Assembly (NCBI RefSeq): GCF_030253575.1
Contig: NC_080559.1
Coordinates: forward strand, 16,478,501 to 16,542,500
From: Rhododendron vialii
Taxonomy: Eukaryota > Streptophyta > Magnoliopsida > Ericales > Ericaceae
DNA length: 64,000 nucleotides
Direction of reading: 5' to 3'
Below the pieces are notes generated by a model. It ran no database searches, had not been told where the DNA came from, and worked only from the letters and a program-made list of their open reading frames with translations. Both the position numbers and the translations under genes were made by a program. Shown one piece after another: positions 20,732 through 63,707 of this stretch (within the stretch, counting starts at the first letter, position 1; every line of letters starts with the position of its first letter).

Positions 20732-20733
20732 AT

Positions 20734-29763: not shown

Positions 29764-29778
29764 AAGCTGGGGAGCAAT
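29764..29778 (+). promoter_or_regulatory. Polypurine tract region
   Basis: The purine-rich aaagctggggagcaa directly precedes the 3' LTR, where plus-strand priming is expected. Confidence 0.7.
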
Positions 29779-30635: not shown

Positions 30636-30958
30636 AGTGATAAGTTTGAGCTGTTAGATTTATGTACACAAGATTTAAATACTGAGCTATTTTTTATTAT
30701 ATAAATTTCAACACATACAAGGCATATTATGAATTGTCATATTCTCTATACAAGAAAAAAGCTGGAACACGATGTATAAATTGCCAAATATCAAACATAA
30801 ATTCATTTCTTGTTCCAAAAAAAAATTGCATTTAACATGTTTGTATGTATTTCTTTTTTTATACTCGTCTGTATGAAATACATATATTCGTTTTTATGTA
30901 TCACCATAAAAGAGACTTTTGAATATGAAGATGGAGGAAAGTATTTCTATATAGAGAG
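30636..30958. other. AT-rich spacer
   Basis: No gene or element recognised. The last five bases (gagag, 30954-30958) form the left target duplication of the next element. Confidence 0.6.
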
Positions 30959-33436: not shown

Positions 33437-33530
33437 ATAACAGAATTTGAGGCACAGTTCGGCCTGCTAAAGCCAAATTAAAATTCCAATTTCCAAACGG
33501 AAGCTTGGGCTTTCACTTTTTGAATCCAAC

Positions 33531-33698
33531 GTCTCTCTCTCTATCTCTAAAGTCTCGATTACGCTCCCCTCTCTCTCAATAAACCGATTACGCTCCTCTC
33601 TGATTACCGATAACGTCTCTCTCTCTCTCTCTAAAGTCTCGATTACGCTCCCCTCTCTCTCAATAAACCGATTACGCTCCTCTCTGATTACCGATAAC
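33531..33698. repeat. 84-bp tandem duplication
   Basis: 33531-33614 and 33615-33698 are direct copies beginning gtctctctctct and containing attacgctcccctc. They lie in CT-rich DNA resembling a plant 5' leader. Confidence 0.9.
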
Positions 33699-39416: not shown

Positions 39417-42400
39417 GATATGAAAAAAGATGTATTTTCATGCTAATCTATTTAATTGTTTGATTGGTTGATGTTGTAGTTGAATTTTGGTTACTCCGTT
39501 AAACCTCTTGGGATGGGGTGTCCTGAGCTCCTACTTTGTTTTCCTTCGAAAGGAACTGATTTCCACTCCTATTTCGGGCATGACACCATAATGGTAGTTG
39601 AATCTTAAAATTCAGTGTGTATTTTCATCTCCTTTTTGTGCAATCAGAACCCAAATTGTATGTCTTATGCATTTTTATGCAATAATAATAAGATTTTTTT
39701 ACCTATGTGGATTCTATAGATTGATTACTTTTTTCATGTTTATTTTTTTGAAAAGGTTGTGAATAACCTGAGAAGCTTGGGGCTTGGAGTAGGAAAGCTT
39801 GGGTAAGTCGTTTTTTTCTTTTTTTGCCAGCAAATGAATTTTCGTTGTATATCTAAATTTGGTTACTATTCCCTGAAGTCATTGAATATGTATCAGTAAA
39901 TAAGGTTCAAGATTTGTTACCCTTTAAAAATTAAAACACTTGATGCAAAGGAGTGCGGTGCTGCTCTTTCTTAGAAATTGTATCTTTGCTGGGATGGGTT
40001 TAGCTTTAAAGTACCTAAGAGCTGTCTTGGAGATAGAGCAAAAATTAGATTAAATCTTGGTCACATTAAGCGCTTGAATAAGAAGAAATAGACAGGAATA
40101 TAGTTTCAAAACATAAAAGTAGAGGGGTAAGGACTACATATTTATTGAAGAGCGAATTTGTACTTCTAAGTTTTAAATTGAAGGTAGTCAACTTGATGCT
40201 GAAAATTAATGATCCATTTGTAAAGCTTTTTAGAAGTCAGCTTGCTAGGCAAAGGTACTTGCCAGTTGCTTTAAATTGGGGTCATTTTATAGGCACTGGT
40301 TATTCTCAATGGGGTATTCAGTTTGAGTTGGTTTAGCAATTTTTCCCTATTCCTCTGGTTGAAGCATTAACGCCAAGAGTTTCTTTTTGCAGCACATGGC
40401 TATAGCTAAGTTAGGTAGAGCACGATGATTGTAGGCTCACACCAATCAATTGGAGCATAAGGTGTTTCAATTGAGGAAAACAAATAAGTGTCTCAAAACA
40501 TAAAAGGCACGTCGTTTCCTATGCCCCTCATCTTCTTTATAAAAGCTTATATATTTCTACATAGAAGTAATTTTTGTATACATCATCTTGGAATAACCCG
40601 TTTTTTCCAATGCCCGATTCACCTACCACTTTTGTAATGCATAGTTTCTCTTTCACAATGCCTGTTTGTTCCCCATGTTAATGCATGGTTGATCTTCTAT
40701 GTGGTTTAGGCCTGTCATTTCCTATTGCTATTTTTCTTATAGCTGTTATCTTTGTGCTCGGTTTGGTCTCATTGCTCTGCGTTAGGATTCATGTGGGTGA
40801 CCAAATCAAGTAGTAGGGTGGTATCCTTTTGTCTTTTATTTTTAGTGGTATTTCTAGTGGTATGATTCTTTAGCCATCCTTTTGTCTTTTATTTGCCTTT
40901 TCTCACCAAATCGGACTGAATATTGTTCAAGCCAATGAGTAGTTTTAAGATATGTGTATATCTTTTAGTTGTTAATTTCTATTGAGTTTTCTTAGAACGT
41001 CTCCTTCGAGCATAGTAATTCAAATCAAGATTTCTCTGGTATTCTATGTCAAATCACCAAAAGAAACCAAAGCAATATTGTATCAAACACACTCTCCTTT
41101 TTAGGAAACAAGGTCTAACTTTTTTTGCTCATATTTAGGGGTCTAATGATAACACGATATCAAAAGCTTCATTAGCTCAACGTAAAAGATGAGAACGAGA
41201 AAGAAGTGAAAAAATCACCCTTCGTCTAAATCGGGGTAATTCTATTGTGCATCCAACCGATAAAAGCCACGTACTATACTTCAAATTGTGTAGATAATAC
41301 AAGGGTTTTTTTTTTTTCCAATTGTGTAGACACGTACTAACTTTTTGTGTGTTTTTACCACTGAGATTGAACTTTAATGTTGAACTAATGGCTAGGATGA
41401 AACATTTGATTTTACACTTCCCCCTCAAAAAATGCAAGTTTGGATCCTACCAAACCCCTCACTGGCTTTAGACCACTCTTTACCAAATGGACACGCAACT
41501 TCTGTTTCTCTTTCAACTCTGTTTCATCCACACAGCCAAACATCTCTCCCCTATGTTTCTCTTAGTATAAAACCCACCCACACATAGTCTCTCTCTCTCT
41601 CTCTCTCTCTCTCTTGCGTGTGTGCAACCCCCACCTGTCAATCTCTCCATCTGTTTCTCTATGTTACCCAGAGGGGACACCACCAACCGAAGTTGCCACT
41701 AATCACTAACAAACTGTTTCATTTGCTTTCCATCTGTCAACCCCCACCTGTCAATCTCGCCATCTGTTTCATCTTGCTTTCGCGGTAAGTTTCATTTGCT
41801 TCATTTGGAAACTACTGATCACTAACAAACTTGATGAAGTTTCATACTCTCCATGTATTGTTTGTTAGGTTGGCACGAATGTTGGAGGGATAGCTGTGAG
41901 ACTGGGTTGGGTCCCTCTCCAACCACTTCCTGAGTTGCTTCAACTCCATCTTCTGGAATTGTAAGCAACAGGTTGCTTATTATAAGCCAAACTTTTTTTC
42001 TATAACAAAAAAGAAAAGTTCTAACCATCATTCTATGTAGATATCCAATGCTGGAGACAATTCAGAAATATCTGTGGCCCAGACTATGCAAGCTGGATCA
42101 GCAAACATTGTAAATTTAGTGTCACATTATTTTTTGTTTTTGTCTATAAATCGAAAAAGTAGGAATTAGTTTCATTTTATTCTGTGTATTTCCCTGATCG
42201 GCATGCAATGAATGTACAGGTACGAACTACATGACCAGATGATTACATTTGGAAAGGTATGTAATCATGATCTTTCCCTTACTATAAGCATCAAATGTGA
42301 CTAATGATTGCATGAAGCTCGTACTCTTCATTTTAGCTGTTATTGAAGTGTTTGGCGAGTGTTAGAAAAAAGAGACAAGCCTGAATGCATATCAATAATG

Positions 42401-42642
42401 CCGTACAGCATACCTTATGCTTATTGCTAGAATCTTGATGAAGTGTTAGGGCGGCACCCTTGTCATGTATCCAGACACATCAACAAATGTTAGAGACCAT
42501 GTTGCTTGTATATTTCCATGTTCATAATTGAGTTCTAAACTTCCAATAATCAAATTGCAATAATTTCTTGATATGGGTCTTTAAATGTAAGTTGGTCTGC
42601 TTTGTCGCATTACTTGTTTAGCTAGTTGCTCTAGTTGTCTTG
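39417..42642. other. Non-coding DNA
   Basis: No gene supported. A (CT)n tract lies at 41588-41614. Short open frames show no domain. Confidence 0.5.
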
Positions 42643-42764
42643 AATATCTGAGGAACATAAGCACTACTAGACTGGAAAAACAAGTATATACTCATCAGAA
42701 GGGGAGGGTGGTGGGTGGTTGTCAAAGAGACGACTGCTTATGCGCATTTATTCGAAAGTCATAA
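42643..42764. repeat. Dispersed repeat, copy A (partner at 59727-59853)
   Basis: aatatctgaggaacataagc, gaaggggagg and ggttgtcaaagaga are shared in the same order and orientation with 59727-59853. The two copies flank the large tandem duplication. Confidence 0.8.
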
Positions 42765-42773
42765 TGATGTAAG

Positions 42774-42981
42774 GAGTGCAATTTCAAGGAGGGTGAACAT
42801 TACCTTCCTTCCTATTGGTTGGAATTGTGTGGATCCCACCACAAAGTGATGTCATGCTTACCATGCAATACACTTTTTGGTAAGTATGACATCACTTTGT
42901 GGTGGGATCCACACCATTTCAACCAATAGAAAGGAGGGTAATGTTTACCCTCTTAAGTGGAGGGTGAACAAAACTCAACTT
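42774..42981. mobile_element. Foldback MITE (MULE-like) with 9-bp target duplication
   Basis: tgatgtaag flanks the insert at 42765-42773 and 42982-42990. The interior 42789-42952 is a nearly perfect hairpin with arms of about 75 bases (gagggtgaacattacc to ggtaagtatgacatc). The related repeat at 59.8 kb lacks the insert, so it acts as an empty site. A 9-bp duplication fits Mutator-like elements. Confidence 0.8.
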
Positions 42982-42990
42982 TGATGTAAG

Positions 42991-43773
42991 CCAGTGGCTA
43001 TTTGATCCAACGACAAGCATTCTACGTGAAAGTCTCTCTAACAAGTAAGGGTTTTCGTTCATTTTAATATTCTTCCCCAAACAAATCTCAACCCTCCATT
43101 TCTACAAATCCGATGGTCTAATTCTATCCCTCTCACAAACAAACCTTTTGGATGGCATGTTTCGTAAATAGTGTGTAATCCTGGGGCTTTTGAGTGGCAT
43201 TTCAATAAATACCTCACATCTAATTCCATTGTGTATTTCAAAATTTCACCTCTTTTTTTTACTCCGAATACTCACCGTCAGATTGGCTCACTTTCAAAAT
43301 TAATGGATGGATTTGATTACCTTCTTCCAAACCTCTTTCCTTCAGCTTCCCCCTGCCCCCCTCTCCATCTCTCTCTCCATACAGATGGCTGAATGCGTGT
43401 GCATCCACGGTCCAACACCACCAGGCCGGTCTCCTTCGCCTCAGAATCGTGCAAATCAACCCAAATCCTAGCTCCTCCGTCATGGCCTTCACTGTGATGC
43501 AACCATTATCAATGGTGGTTGACTGGTCGGTGGTTGCATCATTCATTCGTACTAAGTTTCCATGATTGGTGGAAATTTCTGTGAGTAATCAAGCATTCCT
43601 TTGTTCAGAATCAAGGTAAACGATTTTAGTTCTTTCACATGCTTTTGATTTTGACTTTTTCTGAATCATTCTTCTTTTGGTTCAATTTCATTCTTTCCAT
43701 TCGTTTCTTGAATGATACTGAAATAGAGATAAATGTGAACATGCAACAGATGTACGTATTGGTATGCTTTACC
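42991..43773. other. Leader-like, undefined sequence
   Basis: CT-rich DNA (about 43340-43384) precedes an ATG at 43385 with a short open frame of no known family. The minus strand is also open (43546-43259). Neither is supported as a gene. Confidence 0.4.
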
Positions 43774-45565
43774 TGATCACTACGTGTTTGATAGAAAGCC
43801 TTAATGAAAAATCAAATTTGACTCATCGACTTTATAGTATTTTCTCTGTTACCTTTCTGATATTATCTTTTTGCAATTTCAGGAGCAAAGAACAGGTGTT
43901 CTGCTTCTGCAATGTTATGTGCAGATTGTAAGGGTAAGTAGTTTATGGGTAATTTGAAAGTGGGGGTTGGAGCGTTAATAGAACTCTGCATTTTAGTTAT
44001 TGAAACTTTTTTTTTTTTTCATTTCCAGAAGATTGCAGGCATCAAATTCCACGCATGCTGAGGACCAAAATTTAATCTGAAGGGATACAAACCTAGGTAA
44101 TGGAAAAAAAAACAGCTTGAATTCTATTCTTTTTGTAATCATATCATTGCTTTTTATGTTTTCCTTTTGCTGGGTTTCAGTTTCATTCAATTTGTTTTCT
44201 CCTTTTTGTGTTAACTAGGATGGGTGGTGTTTCTCCCCTTTTTACCTGTTTTCAGCTTCATATCTGGAGGTGGTGGCTATGCTAGCAGTAGGTGGTGCAG
44301 TGCTCTTCAAGCAGGTACTCAGAGTTGACCGATTGATATTGCATGTTTTTTCTTTTTTTGCTCAACGACTGCTATTGTATGTTGTGGTTGGTTGTTTGCT
44401 TTTATGCGAAGTTGATAAATTTTGGGTGGGGAAAAAATTGAAATTTTAAACTGTAGGTGCCTCGGTGATATAGTGGCATGAAGTGTTTTAATATTTCATG
44501 GGATCATACACATCTAATTTGTAAGGTAAACCCGATTTCTTTTTCCTATTGTGTTTTTCGTCAGAGAATATCTATTTTCTAATGACTTTTGGAGGGCATG
44601 AAGTCATATTTTTATACAAACTATCAGATATCCCTTTTGTGGTTTGATTGAGTGGATGGAGACATCTTTGTTGAAATTTATACAAACTGGACATAGAAGT
44701 AGGATAAAGTATACTGGGGCTGTTTAATAACTTGGAAATTGGCTTGCACATGAGATCAAGATGTGTAGGGCTTATCCATTATCTAGGGTTCAAATAGTTT
44801 CTATGGTTGTCAACACGCTCAAAAGTAAGCAAGGTCTTCATTAACTGTGATAGTAAGACTAAAATGAAAGCAGCGGCAGTAATGACGGTTGTTCTCTCCT
44901 ATTTTAATTGGTTATCTTTTCTAATGTAGGTCCTCATTAGATTGTATATGCACTTGATAGTTTACTTATCAGAAAAAAGTATTTGCACTGGGGTAGCCTT
45001 TTAGTATTTGCATCTCTGTAACTTTTTAGTGGAATATGGCAGCACATATTTGGACTACTTCAAATTTCAAATATCTCTCTCTCTCTCTCTCTCTCTCTTA
45101 CCTCTTCCATCTTCATCTTTGGTGAGGGGTCCTTCGATCACCACTCGAATCTGTACACCTCCGGCATGTGCATCGGCAAAGTACAGCCCTCTATGAGAAG
45201 CGCTGCCATGTAAGTTTCTTTCTCTTTCCAATTCATGAACCTTAATTTCTGCTATACAGCCCTTGCAGCCAGCTACCTCTCTATTGTCATTATCTAATTG
45301 GGTTAAATATCTACTTGACCCTTAAGCTAACCAACTTTTGTATACTTCGCCCTATAACTACCAAATAGTTACTCCTTCCATCCAATCCCTAACACCCATC
45401 CAATTGTCTAACGGAAAACGTAACCCCTCTTCCCAAAGTGTGGTTTTGGTGCCAAAACTAGGGCACAACAAGGGTAATCTCGACATTCCAAGTGAAACCC
45501 TAAATCCTAATGCAACCAAAACACCTTCATCCCTTTTTACGGTAATAAAAACGCAGAACAATAAA

Positions 45566-45572
<7 letters not shown>

Positions 45573-45651
<79 letters not shown>
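45573..45651. repeat. (GA)n microsatellite
   Basis: About forty GA units inside MULE copy 1. The equivalent in copy 2 is 53337-53392. Confidence 0.97.
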
Positions 45652-45653
<2 letters not shown>

Positions 45654-47432
45654 CAGTTTACAATGGCATGGATCTTGAGAGCTCCAAATGGAAGAAAACC
45701 TCAATGTAAGGCTTTTATTTATGGAATTTCAGTATTGCATGATTTTATAAGCCTCCTGTTTTAATATGATAATCTCACCCCTTTAGGGCTTTATGAATTA
45801 TTATATGGGTACCACTGATAATGGCTGTTTTTATATGTTTGTTGTGGAATTTGTGCATTTATGGTCCCAATGTGGCCCTACAAGTTGAGGAATTTTTTTT
45901 TTTAGTATAAAGTTGTCTGGAAGTGCATAAAAGTTGCATGTTTGTTTACTTGCCCCTTTTAACAATCGAAAATTTGTTTACCTACAATCCAAACTACCAG
46001 CATTTTTGTGTTCCTTTTGTTTGGACAACAGAAACTGGTTGTTTATTGGTTTCATATATACCTTTGTAGATTCATGTGCTGAGTATTTTATTATCAAGTT
46101 AAATCATGATGGAAATATAGTTAGGGAGGATATGATAGAGTATAATGTTGGTGGTACTGTGAGCTACATTGATTACTGTGATAATGATAGAATTTCTAGA
46201 ACAGAGTTGCATGCAATGTGTAAGGAAGTTGCATGTGTGGAAGAAGTAGATCTCTTCTACAAGGTTAGTGGTTTAGATGAAAAATGGTTTTTTAAGAAGA
46301 TCCAAACTGATAGTGATGTCACAAGCATGGTTGAAAGCCGTAAAAATGATTTGGTGGAAGTGTATATAGGGGATAGTAATTTGGAAGGTCCTACTATTGT
46401 TGAACAAACTGCCAATGTGGATGTGGAACATGGCCTCCTAGATATTGATACTAGCAATTGGGAATGGGATGGTGGAATATTTTTACAGGACACCCTTACT
46501 GTTGTGGATTTGGCAACTCACATACCTTCCATTACACCAAACCCACCACCCGCCAATGAACCACCACCCACCTTTACAAGAAAACAAGCTAGAAGAAGAA
46601 AAGTTTATCATGATTCTGATTCTGAAACTGATAATGAGGTTTTTATAGACAGTGATTATGACCTGAGTGAAGTTGATGATGCCTTGTTTGATGAGAATGT
46701 GGATGAAGACGTAGAGTGGTGTGGTGTGAGGAAAAAAAGAAGAGATATAACTAAAATCCTCCATAGTTGTTTGTCTGAAACTGAATCTGAGGCGGGGGAT
46801 TCCTCAGATGGGTTTTTGAGTTTTGACTCATCTTCTGATGAAGACAGGGAGGATAGGCCAAAGTATAGGAAATATAGGCTTATTAATGCAATAAGGGACT
46901 TGTTGCCTTTTGTGGAACATAGACACTGTGTTAGGCATCTACACAGCAATATGAAGAGAGCTGGATATACAGGTGAACACATACAGTTTTATTGTATTTT
47001 TACTCTCAGGTTTATAGTGAATGCAATCTGTCAATAAAATTGTGTTAGCCCCTCAGTGTTTGGTTTTAACAAAGATACATTCTTTTACTTATATATGTAC
47101 AGGTGAAGCTGTTAAAGACAGGCTGTGGAATCTTGACAGAGCTACCTACATGGGGAGGTTTAAAACCGTTACGGAAGAGTTCGAGAAAGAGGACGGGCCA
47201 GCTTTAAGTGGCTTTCTAAGCATGAACCCAACCACTGGCCTAGATCACATTTTAGTGTGGCCCCAAAATGTGACATGCTGTTGAACAACATGTGTAAGTC
47301 ATTCAATGCTGCAATACTAGATGCTAGGGACAAGCCAATAATAACCTTGCTAGAGAGGATTAGGATTTATATGATGAGGCATTTAGTGAGGAGGAGGGAT
47401 TCTATTAAAAAATGGCATGGTCGGATAGGTCC

Positions 47433-48241
47433 AAAGATTGTGAAGTTGTTAGAGAAGAACATTGCACTATGCAAAGAATACATTGTTGTCTTAACTGGGG
47501 ACAACCAGTTTGAAACTAGCGGTTTTCATGGAAACAATTTTTGTGTTGACATGACAGCCAATACGTGCTCTTGTAGAAGATGGTAGTTGACAGGTAATAC
47601 ATTGTATATAATACCGCCCCCCCCCCCCCCCCCCCCCCCCCGCCCCCGTCCCCTTTTTTTTTCTTTTTTCTTTTTTAAGTTGTGTAACTAATGTCAATGC
47701 CTTCTGTGTTCATAGGTATCCCTTGTGCACATGCACTTTGTGTCTTGAGGGAGTCAAACAAAAAACCTGATGATATTGTGCATAAGTACTACAAGAAGCA
47801 GACCTACGTCAATACCTACTAGCAAGTAATCTACCCCATGAATGGAAAGGATATGTCTAAAGATTGTGAAGTTCTTAGAGAAGAGCATTGCACTATGCAT
47901 GGAGTACGTTGTTGTCTTAACTGGGGACAACCAGTTTGAAACTAGAGGTTTTCAGGGAAACAATTTTTGTGTTGACATGACAGCCAATACATGCTCTTGT
48001 AGAAGATGGGAGTTTACAGGTAATACATTGTAAGTTATGCCCTTTTTTTTTTTTTTTCTAAGTTATGTAACTAATGTCAATGCCTTGTTTGTTCATAGGT
48101 GTCCCTTGTGCACATGCACTTTGTGTCTTGAGGGAGTCAAACAAAAAACCTTAGGATATTGTGCATAAGTACTGCAAAGAAGCAGACCTACATCAATACC
48201 TACAAGCATGTAATCTACCCCATGAATGGAATGGATATGTT
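47433..48241. repeat. Tandem duplication of the SWIM exon in MULE copy 1
   Basis: 47433-47858 and 47859-48241 are direct copies with an intron each, both starting aaagattgtgaagt. The same arrangement is present in MULE copy 2 (about 55119-55893), so it predates the segmental duplication. Confidence 0.85.
47619..47658. repeat. Poly-C tract
   Basis: A run of about 30 C residues with a few G or T, in the short intron of the SWIM region. Absent from the equivalent intron of copy 2. It may be real expansion or a sequencing artefact. Confidence 0.8.
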
Positions 48242-49225
48242 GGAGCAGACAAGCAAACCTCCCATTCAATCCGCACATTACACCTGGAAGGGAGGGAGGC
48301 CCAAGAAATGCAGGAGAAGGGATGCAAATGAGCCACCTGCTCCAAGTGATGGAACTAAGAAAATGAGAAGGAATCTGAAGAAACTGAGTACGAGAAGATG
48401 TGGGGGAAAGGGGCCCAATGTGAGGACTTGCCCATCTGGCTTTACAGCACCATGGTCCACAAAAATGCAATGCAGTCAGCCACAATCAGAACCAATGTTC
48501 ACTATGCTATCACAAGCATCAGAGCCCACACCCGCAACGTCAAGAATTCTGAAGGCCCCCTCTAGAAGGGGTGGTTTAGCTACAAGGGGAGGAGCAGCTA
48601 GAAGGGGAGGTAGGTGCTGCCATTTAAATTTCTATCTTGCTACTTTTATGGTGCAGCCTTGTTTTGACACAGTTAATGGCAGAAATGCCTTCTTTTGCTA
48701 CTTTTATGGCACAACCTTGTTTTGATACCGTTTTGGAAATGGCCTCTTTTGCTACTGTTCTTTCAGCCTTGTTTTGGCTGTAAAAGCCTTCTTTTGAAGG
48801 TAGTATGTTGATGCTTGCGCTACTGCTCTGGCTATTTATGCCTTGTTTTGGTACTACTTTTATGGAACCATTATGTTTGTGGTACTGTTGTTGTATATGG
48901 AAGCATGATGCATTATGTTATGCTCTTTTTTTGCTACTGTCATGGACTGTTATTGCATTTATAGATTGCATTCATAATGCTTCCTTTGGAAAGCAGCGGA
49001 CTGCATTCACAATGCTAGCAAAAATTTTCATTCATTCATACTACAACCCCATTACAGATAGGTGATTGGCAATTGGAGTGCATTACATTCATGGTAATGC
49101 TAGGAATTAACAGATTGGTGTTTCATTTCATTCATGGCAATGCTAGGAATTTGCCCCTTGGAACACTAGAAAACTTAGAAAGGAGTTTAATTTTATTAAC
49201 TTGTAGTTTATGCAACCTACAAATT

Positions 49226-49229
<4 letters not shown>

Positions 49230-49298
<69 letters not shown>
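49230..49298. repeat. (GA)n microsatellite
   Basis: Inside the right part of MULE copy 1. The equivalent in copy 2 is 56892-56925. Confidence 0.97.
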
Positions 49299-50374
49299 GA
49301 ACACAGTAGGAATGTGGCGTGTACTGTGATAAACAGATGAGGAAGAAAGTGATATACGTACATATACTTATAGATTGGTAGGTTAAAGACATAAATAACC
49401 TTGAATAGGTAGTTAAAGGATGGAGGGTTAAGTTTTCCGTTTGGGATTTGGACGGGAATGAGGGATTGGATGGAAGGAGTAACTATTTGGTAGTTGGAGG
49501 GGGAAGTATGTTCAATTGATAGTTGGAGGGGGAAGTAAAGAAAAGTTGATTAGTTTAAGGGGCAAGTAGATATTTAATCCTTATCTAATTCATGCTTTAT
49601 GGAGGACATCGGCATGCAATTTGACTCAAATATTTTTGGAAACAGACTTTGCTAAGAAGATATGGGAGTACCATGACTTCTTGGTTAAAGATTGTTATTG
49701 TGCAGGAAATTGGTGTTGTATTGATCAAAGGGGACCTAATATTTTGAATGGTAAAGCAGGGGACATAATTGGTGTCCATTAGCTTCGTAACAGGCCATTG
49801 TGAGACCATAATTTTTATTTGATCATGGGGGTAAAGTCGGGTTCTTCATTATTTGCGTGTTAAAAGTTCAGAATTTTATGTGGGTTTTATGACTTTGATC
49901 TTCTATGAGTGCACTGCAAGCATTGGGTCAAGACAGCGGAGTTCTTTTTTCGTCTTTGTTATAGGTCAATTTTTGCATGTGTCATAGTCACCGTTGGTAA
50001 TTTACATATTCATATCCCACTCCTTTTTTTCTTTCTAAAAACTGGTTTGGTTCTGTTTGTTGGAATGGATTTGCGGTGATGATCTACGACATGGCCAACG
50101 TGGTAAAACCAATGCCGTAAGAACCATAGCATGCCATTCTTCATTATAAAATCTCTTCTGAGTTGGAGTTGCCTATGGTAATTTTGCAAGAACTTTGTTT
50201 GTCTATGAACTTTGTTTGTCGTATATTGTCCTCTTTCCCCTTACCCCCTTTCTGCTCCTGTCTCTACCATAGTTATATACAATTCGTCCTCTTCATCCTC
50301 TACCCGCTTGAACTCGCTGACCGGCAACCGCAGTTACCTTCCCTCCCTTTCCGCCGCTGCATCTACAAACTGCA

Positions 50375-50486
50375 ATGGCGATTGCATCGTCCACCAGCAT
50401 AGTGCGGCTGGACTCCTCCTTTGTGTCCCTTCGTAAAGGCATTGATTTTAGCTTCTATTTGCGGTCACACCAATTAACTTTCTTTG
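50375..50486 (+). CDS. Duplicate first coding exon of an unidentified gene (unit 1)
   Basis: ATG at 50375 opens 37 codons plus one base, ending at a GT donor (50487). The start MAIASSTSIVRLDSSFVSLR is Ser-rich, Arg-containing and nearly free of acidic residues, resembling a plastid transit peptide. Unit 2 keeps the same exon at 58000-58111, with several amino-acid changes. The duplication breakpoint lies a few bases beyond the donor, so this copy has its donor but no downstream exons before unit 2. It is probably a partial gene copy. Function unknown. Confidence 0.4.
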
Positions 50487-50552
50487 GTAATGATCACTAC
50501 GTGTTTGATAGAAAGCGTTAATGAAAAATTAAATTTGACTCATCGACTTTAT

Positions 50553-51517
50553 CAGTGATTTAAAAAGCGCACGAAGTGCGAGGCGCAATGCAGCGGAAGG
50601 ATTGCGCTTCGGAACTATGGGCTATAGTGCGAACACAAAGGCGCAAGAAAGGCGCTGAGGCGCGCGCTATAGCGCAAGGCGCCAAGGCGCTGAGGCGCGC
50701 GCTTTTTGCTGTGAGGTAAAAATCAGTCTTACGTTTGCGATGCACTGAATAATTTCTTCCTTTAAATCGATGGCAGCCCTATTCGATCGACAAACCAGAT
50801 CGAGCAACAGCCTCTTCGACGATTCAGAGTCTCGGACGATCGGACCCAGCTTCTTCTTCCTCCTCCTCCCTCTTCCTCCTCCTCTCACCGTCTCACGTTT
50901 GCTTCCTCCTCCTCCTTCTCCTCTCACCTTCTTCTTCCTCATTTTCTTTCTATTTTCACCGATTGTCCAGGACCCCCCTTTTCTTTTTTCTTTTTTTTCC
51001 AGTCACAACCCCCCTTTTCTTTTTCTTTTTCTTTTTTCCAGTAGTAGGACCCCCCTTTGCTTTTTTTTTTTTTCTTTTTTTTTCACCTATTTTTTTTTTG
51101 TTTCCAGCTTTGTTTAAAGTATTTGTTCAGTTTGTTGTATTTATTTGTACTTGTTATTTGTAGATGACATCTGAAAATTCTAGTAATGCCTATGCATGCC
51201 TCTAGATTTTATTGTCTTTAATCCTTTTGTTATGTCTCTAAGGCTAAACATTATTATGTTAGCTTTTCATGGATGATATGTTATGTTTAGTGTTTGGTAC
51301 TTTCGTTTAACCATTGACATGTTATGTTTTATGACATTTGAAAGTTTTACAAGTTTTTATTTGTGTTGAAAACTTGTTCTAATAAAATTTGCCTTGCTTA
51401 GATTTTTTTTTTTTTTTTTGCGCTTCGCGTCAATAAAGCGCGCCGCGCCTTGCGCTTTGCGCTAAAGCCCCAAGGGATCGTTGAGCCTTGGTGCGCCTTT
51501 CGCCATTTAAAACACTG
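50553..51517. mobile_element. Non-autonomous hAT, 965 bp, with 8-bp target duplication
   Basis: Termini CAGTGATTTAAA and, read inward from the right, CAGTGTTTTAAA. The target duplication gactttat lies at 50545-50552 and 51518-51525. Unit 1 has a single gactttat at 43828-43835 as the empty site. Both ends are rich in GGCGC/GCGCC words, a known feature of one plant hAT MITE family. The interior contains CT-rich DNA and long T tracts (50840-51100) but no transposase. Confidence 0.94.
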
Positions 51518-51735
51518 GACTTTATGGTATTTTCTCTGTTACCTTTCTGATATTATCTTTTTGCAATTTTAGGACCAAAGAACAGGTGTTCTGCTTCTGC
51601 AATGTTATGTGCAGATTGTAAGGGTAAGTAGTTTATGGGTAATTTGAAAGTGGGGGTTGGAGCTTTGGAGTTAATAGAACTGTGCCTTTTAGTTATTGAT
51701 TAGAGCTACTTTTTTTTTTTCCTTTCCAGAAGATT

Positions 51736-51823
51736 GCAGGCATCAAATTCCACGCATGCTGAGGACCAAAATTTAATCTGCAGGCATCAAATTCCACGCA
51801 TGCTGAGGACCAAAATTTAATCT
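51736..51823. repeat. 44-bp tandem duplication private to unit 2
   Basis: gcaggcatcaaattccac and the following bases occur at 51736-51779 and again at 51780-51823. Unit 1 has one copy (about 44034-44077). Confidence 0.9.
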
Positions 51824-53331
51824 GAAGGGATACAAACCTAGGTAATGGAAAAAAAAAAGCAGCTTGAATTCTATTCTTTTTGTTATCATATCATTGCTTT
51901 TTATGTTTTCCTTTTGCTGGGTTTCAGTTTCATTCAATTTGTTTTCTCCTTTTTATGTTAACTACTATGGGTGGTGTTTCTCCCCTTTTTACCTGTTTTC
52001 AGCTTCATATCTGGAGGTGGTGGCTATGCTAGCAGTAGGTGGTGCAGTGCTCTTCAAGCAGGTCCTCAGAGTTGACCGATTCATATTGCATGTTTTTTCT
52101 TTTTTTGCTCAACGACTGCTATTATATGCTGTGCTTGGTTGTTCGCTTTTATGCGAAGTTGATAAATTTTGGGTGGGGAAAAAATTGAAAATTTAAACTG
52201 TAGGTGCCTCGGTGATATAGTGGAATGAAGAGTTTTCTTATTTCATGGGATCATACACATCTAATTTGTGAGGTAAACCCGATTTTTTTTTCCTATTGTG
52301 TTTTTCGTCAGAGAATATCTTTTTTCTAATGACTTTTGGAGGGCATGAAGTCATATTTTTATACAAACTATCAGATATCCCTTTTGTGGTTTGATTGAGT
52401 GGATGGAGACATCTTTGTTGAAATTTATACAACCTGGACATAGAAGTAGGATAAAGTATACTGGGGCTGTTTAATAACTTGGTAATTGGCTTGCACATGA
52501 GATCAAGATGTGTAGGGCTTATCCATTATCTAGGGTTCAAATAGTTTCTATGGTTGTCAACACGCTCAAAAGTAAGCAAGGTCTTCATTAACTGTGATAG
52601 TAAGACTAAAAGAAAGCAGCGACAGTAATGACGGTTGTTCTCCCCGATTTTAATTGGTTATCTTTTCTAATGTAGGTCCTCATTAGATTGTATATGCACT
52701 TGATAGTTTACTTATCAGAAAAAGTATTTGCACTGGGGTAGCCTTTTAGTATTTGCTCTCTGTAACTTTTTAGTGGAATATGGGAGCACATATTTGGGCT
52801 ACTCCAAATTCAAATCTCTCTCTCCCTCTCTCTCTTACCTCTTCCATCTTCTTCTTTGGTGAGGGATCCTTCGATCACGACTCGAATCTGTACACCTCCG
52901 GCATGTGCATCGGCAAAGCACAACCCTCTATGAGAAGCGCTGCCAGGTAAGTTTCTTTCTCTTTCCAATTCATGAACCTTAATTTCTGCTATACAGCCCC
53001 TGCAGCCTGCTACCACTCTATTGTCATTATCTAATTGGGTTAAATATCTACTTGCCCCTTAAACTAGCCAACTTTTGTTTACTTCCCCCTCCAACTATCA
53101 ATTGAACACACTTCCCCCTCCAACTACCAAATAGTTACTCCTTCCTTCCAATCCCAAACGCCTATCCAATTGTCTAACGGAAAACGTAACCCCTCTTCCC
53201 AAAGTGTGGTTTTGGCGCCAAAACAAGGGCACAACAAGGGTAATCTCGACATTCCAAGTGAAACCCTAAAACTTAATGCAACCAAAACACCTTCATCCCT
53301 TTTTACGGTAATAAAAACGCAGAACAATAAA

Positions 53332-53336
<5 letters not shown>

Positions 53337-53392
<56 letters not shown>
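53337..53392. repeat. (GA)n microsatellite
   Basis: Inside MULE copy 2. Shorter than the 45573-45651 counterpart. Confidence 0.97.
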
Positions 53393-53396
<4 letters not shown>

Positions 53397-53676
53397 TGTT
53401 TACACTGGCATGGATCTTGAGTGCTCCAAATGGAAGAAAATCTCAATGTAAGGCTTTTATTTATCGAATGTCAGTATTGGGTGATTTTATAAGTCTCCTG
53501 TTTTAATATAATAATCTTACCCCTTTAGGGCTTTATGAATTATTATATGGGTACCACTGATAATGGCTGTTTTTATAAGTTTGTTGTGGAATTTGTGCAT
53601 TTGTGGTCCCAATGTGGCCCTACAAGTTGAGGAAATTTTGTTTTTTAGTATAAAGTTGTCTGGAAGTGCATAAAAG

Positions 53677-56290
53677 TTGCATGTTTGTACTTGCCCCTTT
53701 GACAATCTGAAATTTGTTTACCTACAATCCAAACTACCAGCATTTGTGTGTTCCTTTTGTTTGGAAAATAGAAACTGGTTGTTTATTGGTTTCATGTATA
53801 CCTTTGTAGATTCCAGTGCTGAGTATTTTAGTATCAAGTTAAATCATGATGGAAATATAGTTAGGGAGGATATGATAGAGTGTAATGTTGGTGGTACTGT
53901 GAGCTACATTGATTACTGTGATAATGATAGAATTTCTAGAACAGAGTTGCATGCAATGTGTAAGGAAGTTGGATGTGGGGAAGAAGTAGATCTCTTCTAC
54001 AAGGTTAGTGGTTTAGATGAAAAATGGTTTTTTAAGATGATCCAAACTGATAGTGATGTCACAAGCATGGTTGGAAGCCTTAAAAATGATTTGGTGGAAG
54101 TGTATATAGGGGATAGTAATTTGGAAGGTCCTACTATTGTTGAACAAACTGCCCATGTGGATGTGGAAGATGGCCTCCTAGATATTGATACTAGCAATTG
54201 GGAATTGGATGGTGGAGTATTTTTGCAGGACACCCATACTGTTGTGGATTTGGCAACTCACATACCTTCCACTACACCAAACCCACCACCCACCAATGAA
54301 CCACCACCCTCCACTACAAGAAAACTAGCTAGAAGAAGAAAAGTTTATCATGATTCTGATTCTGAAACTGATAATGAGGTTTTTATAGACAGTGATTATG
54401 ACCTGACTGAAGATGATGATGCCTTGTTTGATGAGAATGTGGATGAAGACGTAGAGTGGTGTGGTGTGAGGAAAAAAAGAAGAGATGTAACTAAAATCCT
54501 CCATAGTTGTTTGTCTTAAACTGAATCTGAGGAGGGGGATTCCTCAGATGGGTTTTTGAGTTTTGACTCATCTTCTGATGAAGACAGGGAGGATAGGCCA
54601 AAGTATAGGAAATATAGGCTTATTAATGAAATAAGGGACTTGTTGCCTTGTGTGGCACATAGACACTGTGTTAGTTAGGCATCTACACAGCAATATGAAG
54701 AGAGCTGGATATACAGGTGAACACATTCAGTTTTATTGTATTTTTACTCTCAGGCAAAGATACACTCTTTTACTTTTATATGTACATATGAAGCTTTTAA
54801 AGACAGGCTGTGGAATCTGGCCAGGGCTACCTACATGGGGAGGTTTAAAACCCTTATGGAAGAGTTCAAGAAAGAGGATGGGCCATCTTTTAAGTGGCTT
54901 GCTAAGCGTGAACCCTACCACTAGTCTTGATCACATTTTAGTTTCGCCCCAAATTGTGACATGCTGTTGAACAACATGTGTGAGTCATTCAATGCTGCAA
55001 TACTAGATGCTAGGGACAAGCCTATAATAACCATGCTAGAGAGGATTAGGATTTATATGATAAGGCATTTAGTGAAGAGGAGGGATTCTGTTAAAAAATG
55101 GCATGGTCAGATAGGTCCAGAGATTGTGAAGTTGTTAGAGAAGAACATTGCACTATGGAAAGAGTACATTGTTTTCTTAACTGGGGATAGCCAGTTTGAA
55201 ACTAGAGGTTTTCGTGGAAACAATTTTTGTGTTGACATGACAGCCAATACATGCTCTTGTAGAAGATGGGAGTTGGTAGGTAATACATTGTAAGTTATGC
55301 CCTTTTTTATTTCTTTCTTTTTTTAAGTTATGTAACTAATGTTAATGCCTTGTGTGTTCATAGGTATCCCTTGTGCACATGCACTTTGTGTCTTGAGGGA
55401 GTCAAACCAAAAACCTGAGGATATTGTGGATAAGTACTACAAGAAGCTGACCTACCTCAATACCTACAAGCATGTAATCTACCCCATGAATGGAAAGGAT
55501 ATGTCTAAAGATTGTGAAGTTGTTCGAGAAGATCATTGCACTATGCAAGGAGTACGTTGTTGTCTTAACTGGGGACAACCTGTTTGAAACTAGAGGTTTT
55601 CATGGAAACAATTTTTGTGTTGACATGACAGGCAATACATGCTCTTGTAGAAGATGGGAGTTTACAGGTAATACATTGTAAGTTATGCCCTTTTTATTTT
55701 TTATTTTTTATTTTTTTAAGTTCTGTAACTATTGTCAATGCCTTTTGTGTTCATAGGTATCCCTGTGCACATGCACTTTGTGTCTTGAGGGAGTCAAACA
55801 AAAAACCTGAGGATATTGTGCATAAATACTACTAGAAGCAGACCTACATCACTACCTACAAGCAAGTAATCTACCCCATGAATTGAATGGATATGTGGGA
55901 ACAGACAAGCAAACCACCAATTCAACCCCCACATTACACTAGGAAGGGAGGGAGGCCCAAGAAATGCAGGAGAAGGGATGCAGATGAGCCACCTGCTCCA
56001 AGTGATGGAACTAAGAAAATGAGAAGGAATCTGAAGAAACTGAGTTGTAGAAGATGTGGGGGAAAGGGGCACAATGTGAGGACTTGCCCATCTGGCTTTA
56101 CAGCTCCGAGTTCCACAGAAATACATTGCAGTCAGCCACAATCACGACCAATGTTCACTATGCCATCACAAGCATCACAGCCCACACCCGCAACTTCAAG
56201 AATTCCGAAGGCCGCCTCTAGAAGGGGTGGTATAGTTACAAGGGGAGGAGCAGCTAGAAGGGGACGTAGGTGCGGCTATTTAAATTTCTA
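53677..56290 (+). pseudogene. MULE transposase remnant, copy 2
   Basis: Same order as copy 1: N-terminal block, acidic region, late MULE domain, SWIM finger (here CSCRRWEL is intact) and zinc knuckle (CRRCGGKGHNVRTCP, with the CCHC pattern intact). It shares the loss of the catalytic core. It carries its own lesion, a TAA at 54517-54519 after the acidic region, and the intron sequence differs in length. Where one copy has a stop, the other often keeps the older codon, so the lesions arose after duplication. Confidence 0.85.
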
Positions 56291-56887
56291 TCTTGCTACT
56301 TCTATGGTGCAGCCTTGTTTTGATACAGTTAATGGCTGAAATGCCTTCTTTTGCTACTTTTATGGCACAACCTTGTTTTGATACTGTTTTGGAAATGGCT
56401 TCTTTTGCTACTGTTCTTTCAGCCTTGTTTTGGCTGTAAAAGCCTTCTTTTGATGGTATTATGTTGATGCTTGTGCTACTGTTATATGGCTATTCATGCC
56501 TTGTTTTGGTACTACTTTTATGGAACCATTATTTTTGTGGTACTGTTGTGGTTTATGGAAGCATGATGCCTTATTTTATGCTCTTTTTTTGCTACTGTCA
56601 TGGACTGTTACTGCATGCATAGATTGCATTCATAATGCTTGGCTATGGAAACCAGCGGACTGCATTCACAATGCTAGCAAAAAATTTCATTTATTCATAC
56701 TACAACCCCATTACAGATAGGTGATTGGCAATTGGAGTGCATTACATTCATGGCAATGCAAGGAATTTACAGATTGGTGTTTCATTTCATTCATGGCAAT
56801 GCTAGGAATTTGCCACTTGGAACACTAGAAAACTTAGAAAGGAGTTTAACTTTATTAACTTGTAGTCTATGCAACCTATAAATTTGG

Positions 56888-56891
<4 letters not shown>

Positions 56892-56925
<34 letters not shown>
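56892..56925. repeat. (GA)n microsatellite
   Basis: Inside the right part of MULE copy 2. Shorter than its counterpart at 49230-49298. Confidence 0.97.
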
Positions 56926-57999
56926 GAACACAGTAGGAATGGGGGTGTACTTTGATAAACAGATGAGGAAGAAAGTGATATACATACATATACATATAGA
57001 TTGGTAGGTTAATGGCATAAATAACCTTTAATAGGTTGTTGAAGGATGGAGGGTTAAGTTTTCCGTTTGGGATTTGGATGGGAATGAGGGATTGGATGGA
57101 AGGAGTAAACTATTTGGTAGTTGGAGGGGGAAGTATGTTCAATTGATAGTTGGAGGGGGAAGTAAAGAAAAGTTGATTAGTTTAAGGGGCAAGTAGATAT
57201 TTAACCCTTATCTAATTCATGCTTTATGGAGAACATCGGCATGCAATTTGACTCAAATATTTTTGGAAACAGACTTTGGTGAGAAGAGATATGGGAGTAC
57301 CTTGAGTACTTGGTTAAAGATTGTTATTGTACAGGAAATTGGTGTTGTATTGATCAAAGGGGACCTAATATTTTGAATGGTAAAGCAGGGGACATAATTG
57401 GTGTCCATTAGCTTCGTAACAGGCCATTGTGAGACCATAATTTTTATTTGATCATGGGGGTAAAGTAGGGTTCTTCATTATTTGCGTGTTAAAAGTTCAG
57501 AATTTTATGTGGGTTTGATGACTTTGATCTTCTATGAGTGCACTGCAAGCATTGGGTCAATACAGAGGAGTTCTTTTTTCGTCTTTGTTATAGGTCAATT
57601 TTTGCATGTGTCAGTCACCGCTGGTAATTTACATATTCATACCCCACTCCTTTTTTTCTTTCTAAAAACTGGTTTAGTTCTGTTTGTAGGAATGGATTTG
57701 CGGTGATGATCTATGACATGGCCAACGTGGTAAAACCAATGACGTAAGAACCATAGCATACCATTCTTCATTATAAAATCTCTTCCGAGTTGGAGTTGCC
57801 TATGGTAATTTTGCAAGAACTTTGTTTGTCTATGAACTTTGTTTGTCGTATATTGTCCTCAACCCTTGCCCCCTTTCTGCTCCTGTCTCTACCATAGTTA
57901 TATACAATTCGTCCTTTTCATCCTCTACCCGGTTGAAGTCGTTGACCGGCAACCGCAGTTACCTTCCCTCCCTTGCCGCAGCTGCATCTACAAACTGCA

Positions 58000-58714
58000 A
58001 TGGCAATTGCACCGTCCACCAGGATAGCGCGGCTGGACTCCTCCTTTTTGTCCCTTTGTAAAGGCATTGATTTTAGCTTCTATTTGCGGTCACACCAATT
58101 AACTTTCTTTGGTAATGCACAGTTTCCTATTAACTTTTTTTTCCCTTCCTGAAATGATTGGGGTTGGTCAGTGATTTTTTCTTTCGTTGAATTAGATGTA
58201 GAGGATTTGTTTCTCATTTGAAGGTAGAGAAAGGGAGTGTGCATTTTGATCCCCGTCCTATGTTCATTTATTTGGTCTTGAACCTGCTAGTGTCTATAAC
58301 TTTTGTTTTTGCTATTTTTTTTTGGCCAAATTTGTGCATGTATAGAACATTTTATACCTCTAATTTTGGCTTTGTTGGTTCTCTAATGTCTTGATATTTG
58401 ATGGTGGATCTTTAAAGGGACCGGGTTACTTGGTCAGCTCAAGGGTAGGGCAACAATCGGTAAGTAAAAATGAAAGGTTTTGTTCCATATGAAGTTACTA
58501 ATTTATTTTTTGCCTATTGAGTTGTTTGCTTCTCTGAGATTTATTTATTAGTTAGTTACTTATTAAAAAAAAAAGGAAGTTAGTTGATTACTTGCGGCTC
58601 TTTGATGTAGCTTTGCTTCTTTTTAATTTATCTTTGACTTCAATCAATTGGATTTTTATTTTGGCTTTAGGTTGTTGCAAGGAAAATAATTATTTTGGCT
58701 ACAGAAGTGATTAA
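58000..58714 (+). CDS. Unidentified small gene, possible three-exon model
   Basis: Exon 1 (58000-58111) starts MAIAPSTRIARLDSSFLSL and ends at a GT donor. A possible exon 2 is 58418-58459 (acceptor ttaaag, donor GTAAG; TGLLGQLKGRATI). A possible exon 3 starts at 58671 after tttag and reaches TAA at 58712-58714. Phases agree and would give 65 residues. The N-terminus resembles a plastid transit peptide. I do not recognise the product, and it may be a decayed or wrongly joined gene. Its 5' exon and promoter are also present in unit 1. Confidence 0.3.
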
Positions 58715-60994
58715 GTTGGTGCTTTGAAGATGAAGGAGGAAGCTTCATTATATGGTTGGTGTTTGCTTTGATCACTGTTAGTGATCTTACTGTGTTTCCT
58801 TGCATGTACACTTTTGTTGACACGTTACGGGAAAAAATAGTGGTGGTGTTGATGTAATCTTGAATAACAGCTCCCTAATTTTTGTAACAATTTTGTATTT
58901 GCTTTGATTCCTTGGGTAATATCTTCAATTGAGATTAAGTAATTTTAGTGTTGAGGGTGCATGAAAGTTTTTCATTAGTTTATGTCAATACTTTTGATTT
59001 GTGCCTTCGGGCATGGGCACAGTTGCACTCCTCAAATTTTTCCTTTGAAGTTATTTCATTTTAGTCACGTTCAAAGCCATGTTGCGATGTGCCTGTTGGA
59101 ATCAATTTTCCCAAAGATAAATCTTCAACTTCCTCCCATCATGTAATTTTTCCTTCACAAATCAACATGCTTGTCGAAAGATCCTCATCTGGACCTCCAA
59201 CTAAGTACTTTCAGCCATTCGGCCTTCCAATGTACTATTTCCAGAATCTAGAAACAGGTCAAACTAATTTTGATGTTTGTGAAGCTTAAATTCCATAGTG
59301 AAAAATCTTTCACTGTTGAATTACTGCCATTTCTTTGGTGCTTTAGTGATATTGTATCAGTTCATCTGACATTTTATGTAAGAAACTATTTGCATAGTAA
59401 GTATAATTCTTTGTATTTTTGTCATATTCATATCTTTATTATTTTGAAAATAGGTGTGGCTTGTGTCCCCTAGATAGGCACTGACAGTGATGATTCATTC
59501 CTGGATATTTATACAGGTTTTCTGTACAAAGAGCAAACAAAACTGCAATGCGTGTCCAATGAGAGGAGACTGCAGACACTTTGCAAGTGCTTTTGCAAGG
59601 TATACCATTCAACCTTCGTTCAAAAACACTTTCAGTTGATAACCAGGAGCATTATCATCATCATTACCTATTGGATCAAAGCTCAGCTCAAAAGTTGGAC
59701 ACTCAATTTAGTAACATTTAAATATCTGAGGAACATAAGCACTACTTGACTAGAAAAACAAGCAGTATATACTCATTAGAAGGGGAGGGACGGAGGGTGG
59801 TTGTCAAAGAGATGACCGCTTATGCATTTATTCGAAAGTTATTGATGTAAGTCAATTGCTATTAGGTCCTAAAACTATGACAGAAGAAAAAAATAAGAGG
59901 AAAATTAACCACATAATGAGTGTTATTTTGTCCTCAAAATGAGTTAGTTGGAAAACCACTGGCTCAACTAGTCACGAAGGAGGTCACAATTTCCAGCACA
60001 CACTTAGAGCGGGAAAGAAAATTTGAAAAAAATTTAACACACTTAGGTTTGGACCCAGGACACAAATGTTTGAACCACTCTCAACATGCGTCCTTTGGAA
60101 AAGAACATTATCATTAGTTTCTTAAAAATCCAGTTTAAGTAAAAAAAGAACCGATGCAATCCTAGAAGATACTAAGAATTTAGGACTGTGTTCCCCAATA
60201 AGTTTTCTATCCAATTATTACTCTCATTTCTCTGTCTCTCTCCAATCATTACTCCAAAAACCCCACTCAAAAAGCAAATCAAACAAAACTCTAGATGCAT
60301 CAAAGGCAATGACATTTGAGGTGTTTTTGTTTCCATCATTTAGAACCATGACACAATACATGTACTCACATATTGCAAGGTCAAAAAATCGATCGTATGT
60401 CTTGGAAATAAACCTTTAAGTTTTTAACAAAATCCAAAAAGAAACTCTTAAGTACCGAATATGCATGAATGTTTTGTTTATCAGATATTTTTAGAGAAAT
60501 AAAGAGGAAATATTGAACCTATATCCAAATGTGACTAATTTTGCTAGAAAAATAGGAAAGAGAAAGTGGAAGAATAGAGGCAAAATAGGTGGAGGTATAT
60601 GAACAATATTTCAATTGCTTGACTAATGTAGCCATAGGAGAGGGGATCATATGGTAAGTTGGTAACATCCTTAATACTTTGGCCACTTAATTATCTGATG
60701 TAGGAAAACAAAATGAAAAGGCCTGGAACCGACTGAACATCATGTGGAACAATATTATATATGAAAACAAATAAACGTATTCCATTTTGTTCATAAATTT
60801 GGGAAGAGCAAGATCATGTGCTTTTACTTGTTGAATCCCCCCTATTTATGCCCTTTGGATGTCTACAAATAGGGGAGCTGTTCTATTAGGAAAACCATTT
60901 TGGGATGGGGATGGAAGAACCTTGTGAAAGGAACAAAACCTACCTCACTAGAAAAAAATAATACCTGAGTGAGCTACCTTTTGGAAGTCCCACT
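58715..60994. other. Non-coding or undefined sequence
   Basis: A frame of 66 residues at 59089-59289 is followed by a possible donor after YYFQNLETG but has no known domain. The repeat pair of 42.64 kb lies at 59727-59853. No gene supported. Confidence 0.45.
59727..59853. repeat. Dispersed repeat, copy B (partner at 42643-42764)
   Basis: Shares aatatctgaggaacataagc and ggttgtcaaagagatga with copy A, without the foldback MITE found there. Confidence 0.8.
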
Positions 60995-62190: not shown

Positions 62191-63707
62191 TTTGTTTTTG
62201 GCGTGCAAGGCTTGTAGAGGTGTCAAATGTGCCGGCACGACCCGTTTAACTTCGTGCTAACCGTGCTTCATGCCGTGCCGTGCCGGCCCGTTTACTTTAT
62301 TTACTTAAATCGTGCTGTGTCGTGCCGTGCCGTGCTGTTTGTCAATCGTGTCGTGCCGTGCCGGCCCGTTTACTTAAATTGTGTTGTGCCGTGCCATGCC
62401 ATTTGTCAATCGTGTCGTGTCGTGCCGGCCCATTTCTGAAATCGTGTCGTGTCATGCCGGCCCAATTTCTTAAATCGTGTCGTGTCATGTCATGCCGGTC
62501 CGTTTTCTTAAATCATGTCGTGCCATGCCGTTTTCAATCGTGTCAAGATGTGCCGGCCCATTTACTTAATCGTGTCGTGTCGTGTCGTGTCGAATCGGGC
62601 CGGGCCGGGCCGTTTTAAGTCATGTCGTTTTAGTCTGCCCTAACATTTGCTTTCATATTAAATTACTCTTGCACCATAAATATTTTGATAAGTTTTTTTA
62701 ATTTTACTTGTTATCTTGTATTGTAATGTTAAATTTGCAAACCAAAGGTCCAAAGCCTATTTAATTTTACTAACAAAAACAAAACAAATATTTTTACCGA
62801 ATAAAATTTGATAGTTTTTTAAAAGTAAAAAAATGATTTTTTAAAAACATGATTTTTTAATAAATTGTTTTTTAAAAAAAATTAAATATCTTAGTTGTTT
62901 ACCTTTAAAAATAGGTAAACAAATATTTTTAACGGAATAGAAATTGTTTAATTTTTTAAAAATTTTAAAAAAAAACCATGTGGCTTATTTAATTTTTTTT
63001 CCCTTGCTTCGTGCCGTGCCCTTTCGTGCCCATGCTCGTGCCTATGCCCGTGCCTTGCTAGAACCGTGCCATGCCGTGCCGTTCCTGTCCACTTTTCGTG
63101 CCCGTGCCCGTGTCGTGCCGTGCTGTGCCAGGCCAACTTTCGTGCCGTGCCCGTGCCGTGCCAGGCCAATACCGTGCCTGTGACGTGCCGTGCTACCCCG
63201 TGCCCGTGTCGTATCGTGCCGGTACGGCCCATTTGACACCTCTAAAGGCTTGCCCTCCCAAGTCTAGAAGAGAAAAGTATAGTGGGTTCAACAACTCCAG
63301 CAGCCACTGACAGAAGCGCTACAATAGGAATCAGGCCCATTCCATTACTAACAGCTGATAGAAATGAACCGAAAGAGATCGGATCAGTTTTGAGGAACTG
63401 TGAACCTATTGTCGAGGAACCAGCAACACCAGAAGGTCCAGAACCAGAAACTGCAGAGTTCACGCTGAACCAACACCAGTAGTGACATCGAAGATGTGTT
63501 TTATGAGGATCCTGACGAAATTCCTACAATCAAACTCAACCTTGAAGAGTTCACGCTGAATCTACATAACTACGTGCAAGAAAAGATGGAACTGCGAGAG
63601 GGTGATACGTCCAAAGCTTTAGTTGCTTTGTATCCACAGGCTGCTTTGATCCCTACACTGAAACTGAAGAATGTGAGTCGACTACGCACATAGCACCAAG
63701 TGTAAGT
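62191..63707 (+). pseudogene. DEMETER/ROS1-like DNA glycosylase pseudogene exon, split by a hAT MITE
   Basis: After the MITE, 63246-63480 reads RLALPSLEEKSIVGSTTPAA then LRNCEPIVEEPATP, and 63484-63690 reads SDIEDVFYEDPDEIPTIKLN then LKNVSRLRT. These are hallmarks of the C-terminal half of plant 5-methylcytosine DNA glycosylases (DME/ROS1/DML), which remove methylated cytosine in the nucleus. Left of the MITE, 62191-62214 keeps a trace of the FASARL segment. It is broken: the 62215-63244 insertion, a frame change near 63470 and TAG at 63691-63693 where the family has Glu (RLRTEHQV). A possible donor (GTAAG) follows at 63703. The glycosylase domain exons are not seen in this window; the rest may continue beyond it. 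Confidence 0.88.
62215..63244. mobile_element. hAT MITE, 1,030 bp, with perfect 8-bp target duplication
   Basis: Termini TAGAGGTGTCAAATG and CATTTGACACCTCTA are perfect inverted repeats. The target duplication aaggcttg lies at 62207-62214 and 63245-63252. Both subterminal regions (62230-62620 and 63010-63230) are packed with CGTGCCGTGCC/CGTGTCGTG words in opposite orientations; the middle is AT-rich. It has no transposase. The Cys/Val/Pro-rich open frames within are repeat translations. Confidence 0.95.

Follow-up and report, generated by a model that had tools for sequence, protein, structure and literature searches.

In one survey of copy-number changes in rice (PMC4812662), non-homologous recombination was given as the origin of 52.98% (4,872) and recombination between repeats as that of 0.48% (44); the non-homologous tandem segmental duplications of plant genomes described there are collinear direct copies with repeat-free breakpoints that overlap by 0 or by 1 to 10 bp. 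Two other routes are on record. In maize, reversed-ends transposition of hAT elements produces tandem copies, and the account given of that mechanism places an element at the junction and has the target duplication of one element unmatched on one side (PMC3744419); for the human genome, re-insertion of circles in permuted order has been reported (PMC7188851). Here we analyze a 64,000-nucleotide stretch of the Rhododendron vialii genome (assembly GCF_030253575.1, contig NC_080559.1, positions 16,478,501 to 16,542,500 of the forward strand; hereafter called the window), in which two copies of a segment of approximately 6.7 kb stand head to tail. Each copy carries a dead Mutator-like element (MULE), and the duplication apparently arose inside an intron that belonged to a ROS1/DEMETER-like gene in decay. 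In our judgment the arrangement probably goes back to a single ancient tandem duplication made by end joining or template switching, and on the rice figures this favored route is therefore a common one. Measured against the duplications described in the rice survey, the one reported here shows no difference in kind, sharing with them collinear direct copies, repeat-free breakpoints and an overlap within the same range; it is old and holds a dead transposon.

A preliminary description of this DNA, made from the letters alone, had placed collinear direct units of 6.7 kb at 43774 to 58117, and our alignments bear this out. BLAST comparison of the window with itself returned direct matches pairing 43828-47010 with 51518-54754 and 47070-50492 with 54755-58117, which together span 43828-50492 and 51518-58117 with the exception of 59 bp (47011-47069). 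Self-alignment and breakpoints together delimit unit 1 at 43774 to 50490 (plus strand, 6717 bp) and unit 2 at 50491 to 58115 (plus strand, 7625 bp, or 6652 bp after subtraction of a 965-bp insertion and its 8-bp target duplication). Aligned in full from the proposed breakpoints, the units agree at 6229 aligned bases and differ at 320 (95.1% identity), with 31 gaps between them, the largest of which (973 bp) lies opposite position 50530, near the start of unit 2. An identity of 95% over 6.5 kb is far beyond chance. More than half of each unit is filled by the MULE.

The three breakpoints have only the dinucleotide TG in common, at 43774-43775, 50491-50492 and 58116-58117, as had been claimed. 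The left breakpoint reads GCTTTACC-TG-ATCACTACG, the junction between the units (50491 to 50492) reads TCTTTGGTAA-TG-ATCACTACG (junction sequence, GGTAATGATCAC), and the right end reads TCTTTGGTAA-TG-CACAGTTTC. On the 5' side of TG the junction agrees with the right end at 20/20 bases and on the 3' side it agrees with the left end at 20/20 bases. The outer flanks resemble the corresponding unit ends at only 3/20 bases on the left and 6/20 on the right, and there is therefore no homology longer than TG. End joining or template switching would be expected to leave direct, collinear units that meet at unrelated ends with at most a few bases in common, as is seen here. Non-allelic homologous recombination between flanking repeats would instead call for homologous repeats at both breakpoints, and none is present. 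Dispersed repeats do occur near the block, among them a direct repeat at 42640-42773 and 59718-59851 whose copies are 87.7% identical, but these sit approximately 1.0 and 1.6 kb outside the breakpoints, and the dissimilarity of the flanks contradicts their involvement, which makes this explanation extremely unlikely. The preliminary description was thus right to set recombination between repeats aside; the 2-bp overlap from which it argued cannot identify the route. When 200,000 random pairs of breakpoints were drawn within the window, 17.2% overlapped by at least 2 bases, so that the observed overlap is not longer than chance, as a claim of microhomology use would require.

The insertion that accounts for most of the extra length of unit 2 occupies 50553 to 51517 (965 bp), begins with CAGTG and ends with CACTG. 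On both sides of it stands GACTTTAT, a perfect 8-bp target duplication; the corresponding site of unit 1 is empty and carries a single GACTTTAT. Elements of the hAT type are marked by 8-bp target duplications and CAGTG ends, and the insertion, which has both, is accordingly called hAT-like. It is a candidate non-autonomous element; its reading frames of at least 100 amino acids look low in complexity. Most simply, it would have inserted after the duplication. Its position, approximately 60 bp from the junction, invites the alternative that it is a trace of reversed-ends hAT transposition and that this process made the copies, and the locus does share tandem direct copies and a nearby hAT-like element, complete with target duplication, with the maize cases (PMC3744419). 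As that report presents the mechanism, however, the element lies exactly at the junction and has an unmatched target duplication, whereas here the junction is at 50491 and the element, 62 bp inside unit 2, has GACTTTAT on both sides and an empty site in unit 1, the marks of an ordinary insertion. We therefore consider it highly improbable that reversed-ends transposition made the copies.

The preliminary description further held that the right breakpoint lies just after the GT of a first-exon donor and that the promoter and first exon of a small gene were copied whole. A possible first exon and donor are indeed retained, at 50375 to 50486 in unit 1 (plus strand, open, ending at the donor GTAATG) and at 58000 to 58111 in unit 2 (plus strand, with GTAATG running into the right flank). 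The right breakpoint falls after GTAA of this possible donor, with exon ends at 50486 and 58111. The candidate exon starts with ATG and comprises 37 codons that are open in both copies, 6 of which differ between the units (5 replacements and 1 synonymous change). Comparison of the copies gives no indication of purifying selection, either here or in the reading frame of the MULE. Pfam and PDB searches with both possible exon joins gave nothing credible as a family for the small gene (best PDB E values, 0.84 and 1.9). Copying of a promoter and first exon in full, which presupposes this putative gene model, is therefore no more than a possibility.

The same candidate exon underlies a further explanation, in which the junction between the units would represent the older order. 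In that case the intron of the glycosylase gene would have received a double copy, circularly permuted, of a gene of the form exon 1-intron 1-exon 2 with the MULE as a passenger; a circle or array opened inside intron 1 would place both outer breakpoints at one point of that intron, and the old order in line would be the first exon, GTAATGATCAC and the next exon. Read by eye, the exon at 50375-50486 does join in frame, across the junction and a GT-AG intron, to a short open exon at approximately 51573, the unit 1 counterpart of which was also translated. This agreement of frame could easily be chance, because the short exon is open in two of its three frames; moreover, a second in-frame continuation of the first exon leads to exon-like sequence at approximately 58418 in the right flank, and neither join is backed by a protein match. 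The human cases (PMC7188851) are alike in that a cut inside the copied segment could bring both outer breakpoints to one point of the unit. Neither a donor locus nor a single permuted copy is known here, and a plain tandem duplication is enough to account for these facts. We regard re-insertion of a permuted circle as quite improbable at this locus; were it true, it would provide a testable plant case of circle re-integration.

Each unit contains a copy of the MULE, which the preliminary description had missed. The unit 1 copy lies at 45300 to 49580 (plus strand, 4281 bp) and the unit 2 copy at 53037 to 57207 (plus strand, 4171 bp), and in both units the same 10-bp target duplication, TTATCTAATT, is found on both outer sides. 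The terminal inverted repeats extend over approximately 156 bp in unit 2, and one arm in unit 1 lacks 29 bp; the two arms agree at 86% of 127 aligned bases in unit 1 and at 90% of 156 in unit 2. Long terminal inverted repeats and a target duplication of approximately 9 to 11 bp characterize Mutator-like elements, and both are seen here. Pfam searches with the unit 2 copy matched a SWIM zinc finger (9.1e-08, with pieces joined by hand) and, just under the cut-off, a zinc knuckle (7.9e-06; 26 bits versus 27), and no Pfam transposase match, including the MULE transposase (DDE) domain, was found in the element pieces given. Going by the layout that we take to be usual for plant Mutator-like elements, this would be a MULE missing part of its transposase, and since the ends of the element are intact, the missing match is attributed to loss in a dead copy. 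We thus read it as a Mutator-like remnant, not a working element. The presence of the same element at one 10-bp target site in both units means that it inserted before the duplication.

Within the MULE, a tandem repeat of approximately 390 bp (plus strand; 47423 to 48240 in unit 1, with its counterpart at 55110-55896 in unit 2) is likewise older than the 6.7-kb duplication, because its site patterns pair copies across units: with three-state sites left out, 6 of the 7 two-against-two sites pair like copies across the units, 1 conflicts and 0 pair copies within a unit. Over 702 bases of the Mutator reading frame the units differ by 1 synonymous and 21 replacement changes (ratio of proportions, 5.2). 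Adaptive change was considered and rejected, given that synonymous sites make up 140 of 699, so that approximately 4.4 of 22 changes would be expected to be synonymous and the probability of 1 or fewer is approximately 0.05; we take the 1:21 ratio as lack of constraint. When the first frame of the element was compared with the PDB, five rows came back (best E value, 0.003), which we take to be chance matches. Pattern searches for relatives gave 8 matches in viral contigs and 35 in genome contigs, none of them confirmed, neither collection being one of plants. The unit 1 copy also contains a run of 25 C at 47617-47641 that is absent from the three related repeat copies, is unusual in this AT-rich DNA and is a possible weak spot of the assembly.

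Also overlooked in the preliminary description is the broken gene around the block. To the left are three ROS1/DEMETER-like glycosylase exons on the plus strand between 41869 and 42256 (41869-41961, ~42042-42110 and ~42221-42256, with ends read by eye). To the right, on the same strand, lie a next exon at 59517 to 59597, which has the iron-sulfur cysteines, and further, frame-shifted coding sequence at approximately 63244 to 63700, whose start has been truncated by a 1028-bp element (62216-63243). The last exon before the block ends with YELH.QMITFGK and the first one after it begins with VFCTKSK. Joined by hand together with this downstream piece, the exons match ROS1 structures in the PDB with E values of 3.0e-79 (7yho) and 3.8e-79 (7yhq) and retain the iron-sulfur motif CNACPMRGDC, and both features place them with the ROS1/DEMETER 5-methylcytosine glycosylases, which are DNA demethylases; in Pfam this query hit no glycosylase family. 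Where 7yhq reads VDTNVGR, the window reads VGTNVGG, with glycine in place of the aspartate, a position at which 7yho has N; we presume this aspartate of VDTNVG to be the conserved catalytic one. A conserved aspartate of the glycosylase domain is named in the account given in PMC8928260, and a literature search for D971N found no paper. On these residues and the frameshift, the sequence would be a pseudogene relative of the family, not a working member. An approximate probe found no upstream glycosylase exons in the window. The exons on the two sides of the block are on the same strand, in order, and continue one another, so that the block seems to lie in a former intron, now approximately 17 kb long, of a broken gene or gene fragment.

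Taken together, these observations suggest a history in four steps. First, a Mutator-like element inserted into the host DNA, as its 10-bp target duplication in both units attests. Second, as the site patterns show, a stretch of 390 bp inside the element was doubled; the coding sequence of the transposase presumably lost a part. Third, the segment running from TGATCAC to GGTAATG would have been doubled head to tail, its ends sharing no homology beyond TG; to judge from the junction, end joining or a template switch would have been the route. Fourth, the copies would have drifted apart by approximately 5%, unit 2 acquiring a 44-bp repeat as well as the hAT-like element, with further insertions or deletions arising; the differences themselves are observed, and their direction is probable. 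No function of the duplicated block is indicated. A datable duplication with intact breakpoints and with nested insertions that order events offers a clean, small example of growing introns in dying plant genes.

Comparison of the units, which the preliminary description had proposed as a check, confirmed that they are collinear and also indicated that they are not young. The Kimura two-parameter distance between them is 0.0505. Rates between 2.5e-9 and 1.3e-8 substitutions per site per year give an age of about 10 to 2 million years, and the duplication is therefore not recent. In addition to the hAT-like element private to unit 2, a 44-bp direct repeat at 51735-51836 is found in unit 2 only, 29 bp of one Mutator arm are missing from unit 1, and the 59 bp at 47011-47069 of unit 1 are missing from unit 2. 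These differences also bear on whether two haplotypes, or a wrong join, might have been placed in tandem by the assembly, for which the run of C in unit 1 offers a possible weak spot. The window contains zero N, a haplotype error would join the right flank to the left flank, not unit to unit (an argument rather than a test), and the units differ by 5%, one insertion and many indels; an artefact is accordingly unlikely. The tandem duplication is real, correctly located, older than had been implied, and ordinary in kind.

Several points nevertheless weigh against this reading or parts of it. Divergence between the units is uneven along their length (chi-square, 59.6; 22 degrees of freedom; P = 2.6e-5), with 224 differences in 4126 bases inside the MULE versus 96 in 2423 beside it (P = 0.0075), and this unevenness leaves room for later exchange that could have taken place between the copies. 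The candidate first exon is still open in both copies, which hints weakly that it is used. End joining, template switching and joining free of microhomology cannot be told apart at this junction, because 17% of random pairs share at least 2 bp. That the two sets of glycosylase exons belong to one gene is suggested by their order and strand, and no earlier exon was found in the window. Finally, the substitutions are rich in transversions, which is unusual for neutral drift.

The units differ by 132 transitions and 188 transversions, or by 105 and 153 after removal of gap edges and simple repeats. As a control we took 11 other repeat rows of the window, outside the units, of 75 to 99% identity and at least 60 bases; these have 84 transitions and 26 transversions (Fisher P = 2.3e-10 versus the units, a value that is overstated because three control rows overlap in one tandem repeat). 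Without two of the overlapping rows, 66 transitions and 24 transversions still remain. Not all controls are rich in transitions, single rows giving 13:10 and 5:5; the count is 115:134 for a Gypsy pair that was excluded from the controls for saturation (64% identity). The ratio of observed to expected CpG is 0.16 to 0.21 in the MULE and 0.35 to 0.64 beside it, falling to 0.08 in one kilobase, and this scarcity removes part of the usual source of transitions. Outside CpG, the units still differ by 107 transitions and 156 transversions, and CpG depletion explains the excess only partly. Differences that predate the duplication (arm versus arm, and repeat a versus repeat b) comprise 6 transitions and 9 transversions; younger differences in the same stretches comprise 32 and 36, with 8 and 5 in the arms alone, and 22 of the 45 singletons in the four-way comparison of the repeats are transitions. 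Sequencing noise in one copy was rejected as the cause, since both units hold singletons and a transition bias is absent from the pre-duplication differences as well, albeit in small counts. The lack of bias thus seems to belong to the sequence and not to errors in one copy, although the numbers are small. A literature search on transitions and CpG depletion found no paper. Differences of this kind could provide a useful check on how CpG loss relates to the mutation spectrum of old repeats.

Elsewhere in the window, a scan of both strands for Helitron 3' ends, based on a simple hairpin and CTRR, found none (five one-strand base shuffles gave 0, 0, 1, 0 and 0), and a tRNA scan with bacterial settings and an Rfam scan at gathering scores returned nothing. 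The left copy of the direct repeat that flanks the block is followed by an inserted hairpin element (~42774-42990) with repeated TGATGTAAG. A minus-strand frame at 7237-8751 encodes a BED zinc finger and DUF659, which we take to be parts of a hAT-type transposase. At 19880-30639 lies a young long terminal repeat (LTR) element, presumably of the Gypsy type from its domain order, with LTRs that differ at 2/856 bases and a 1893-residue open frame matching gag, reverse transcriptase, RNase H and integrase. CT-rich stretches resembling first exons, with possible donors and all on the plus strand, were recognized by eye at 33500-34200, 37300-37700, 41580-41800, 43340-43620, 45080-45210 and 50240-50490; these are perhaps captured gene starts.

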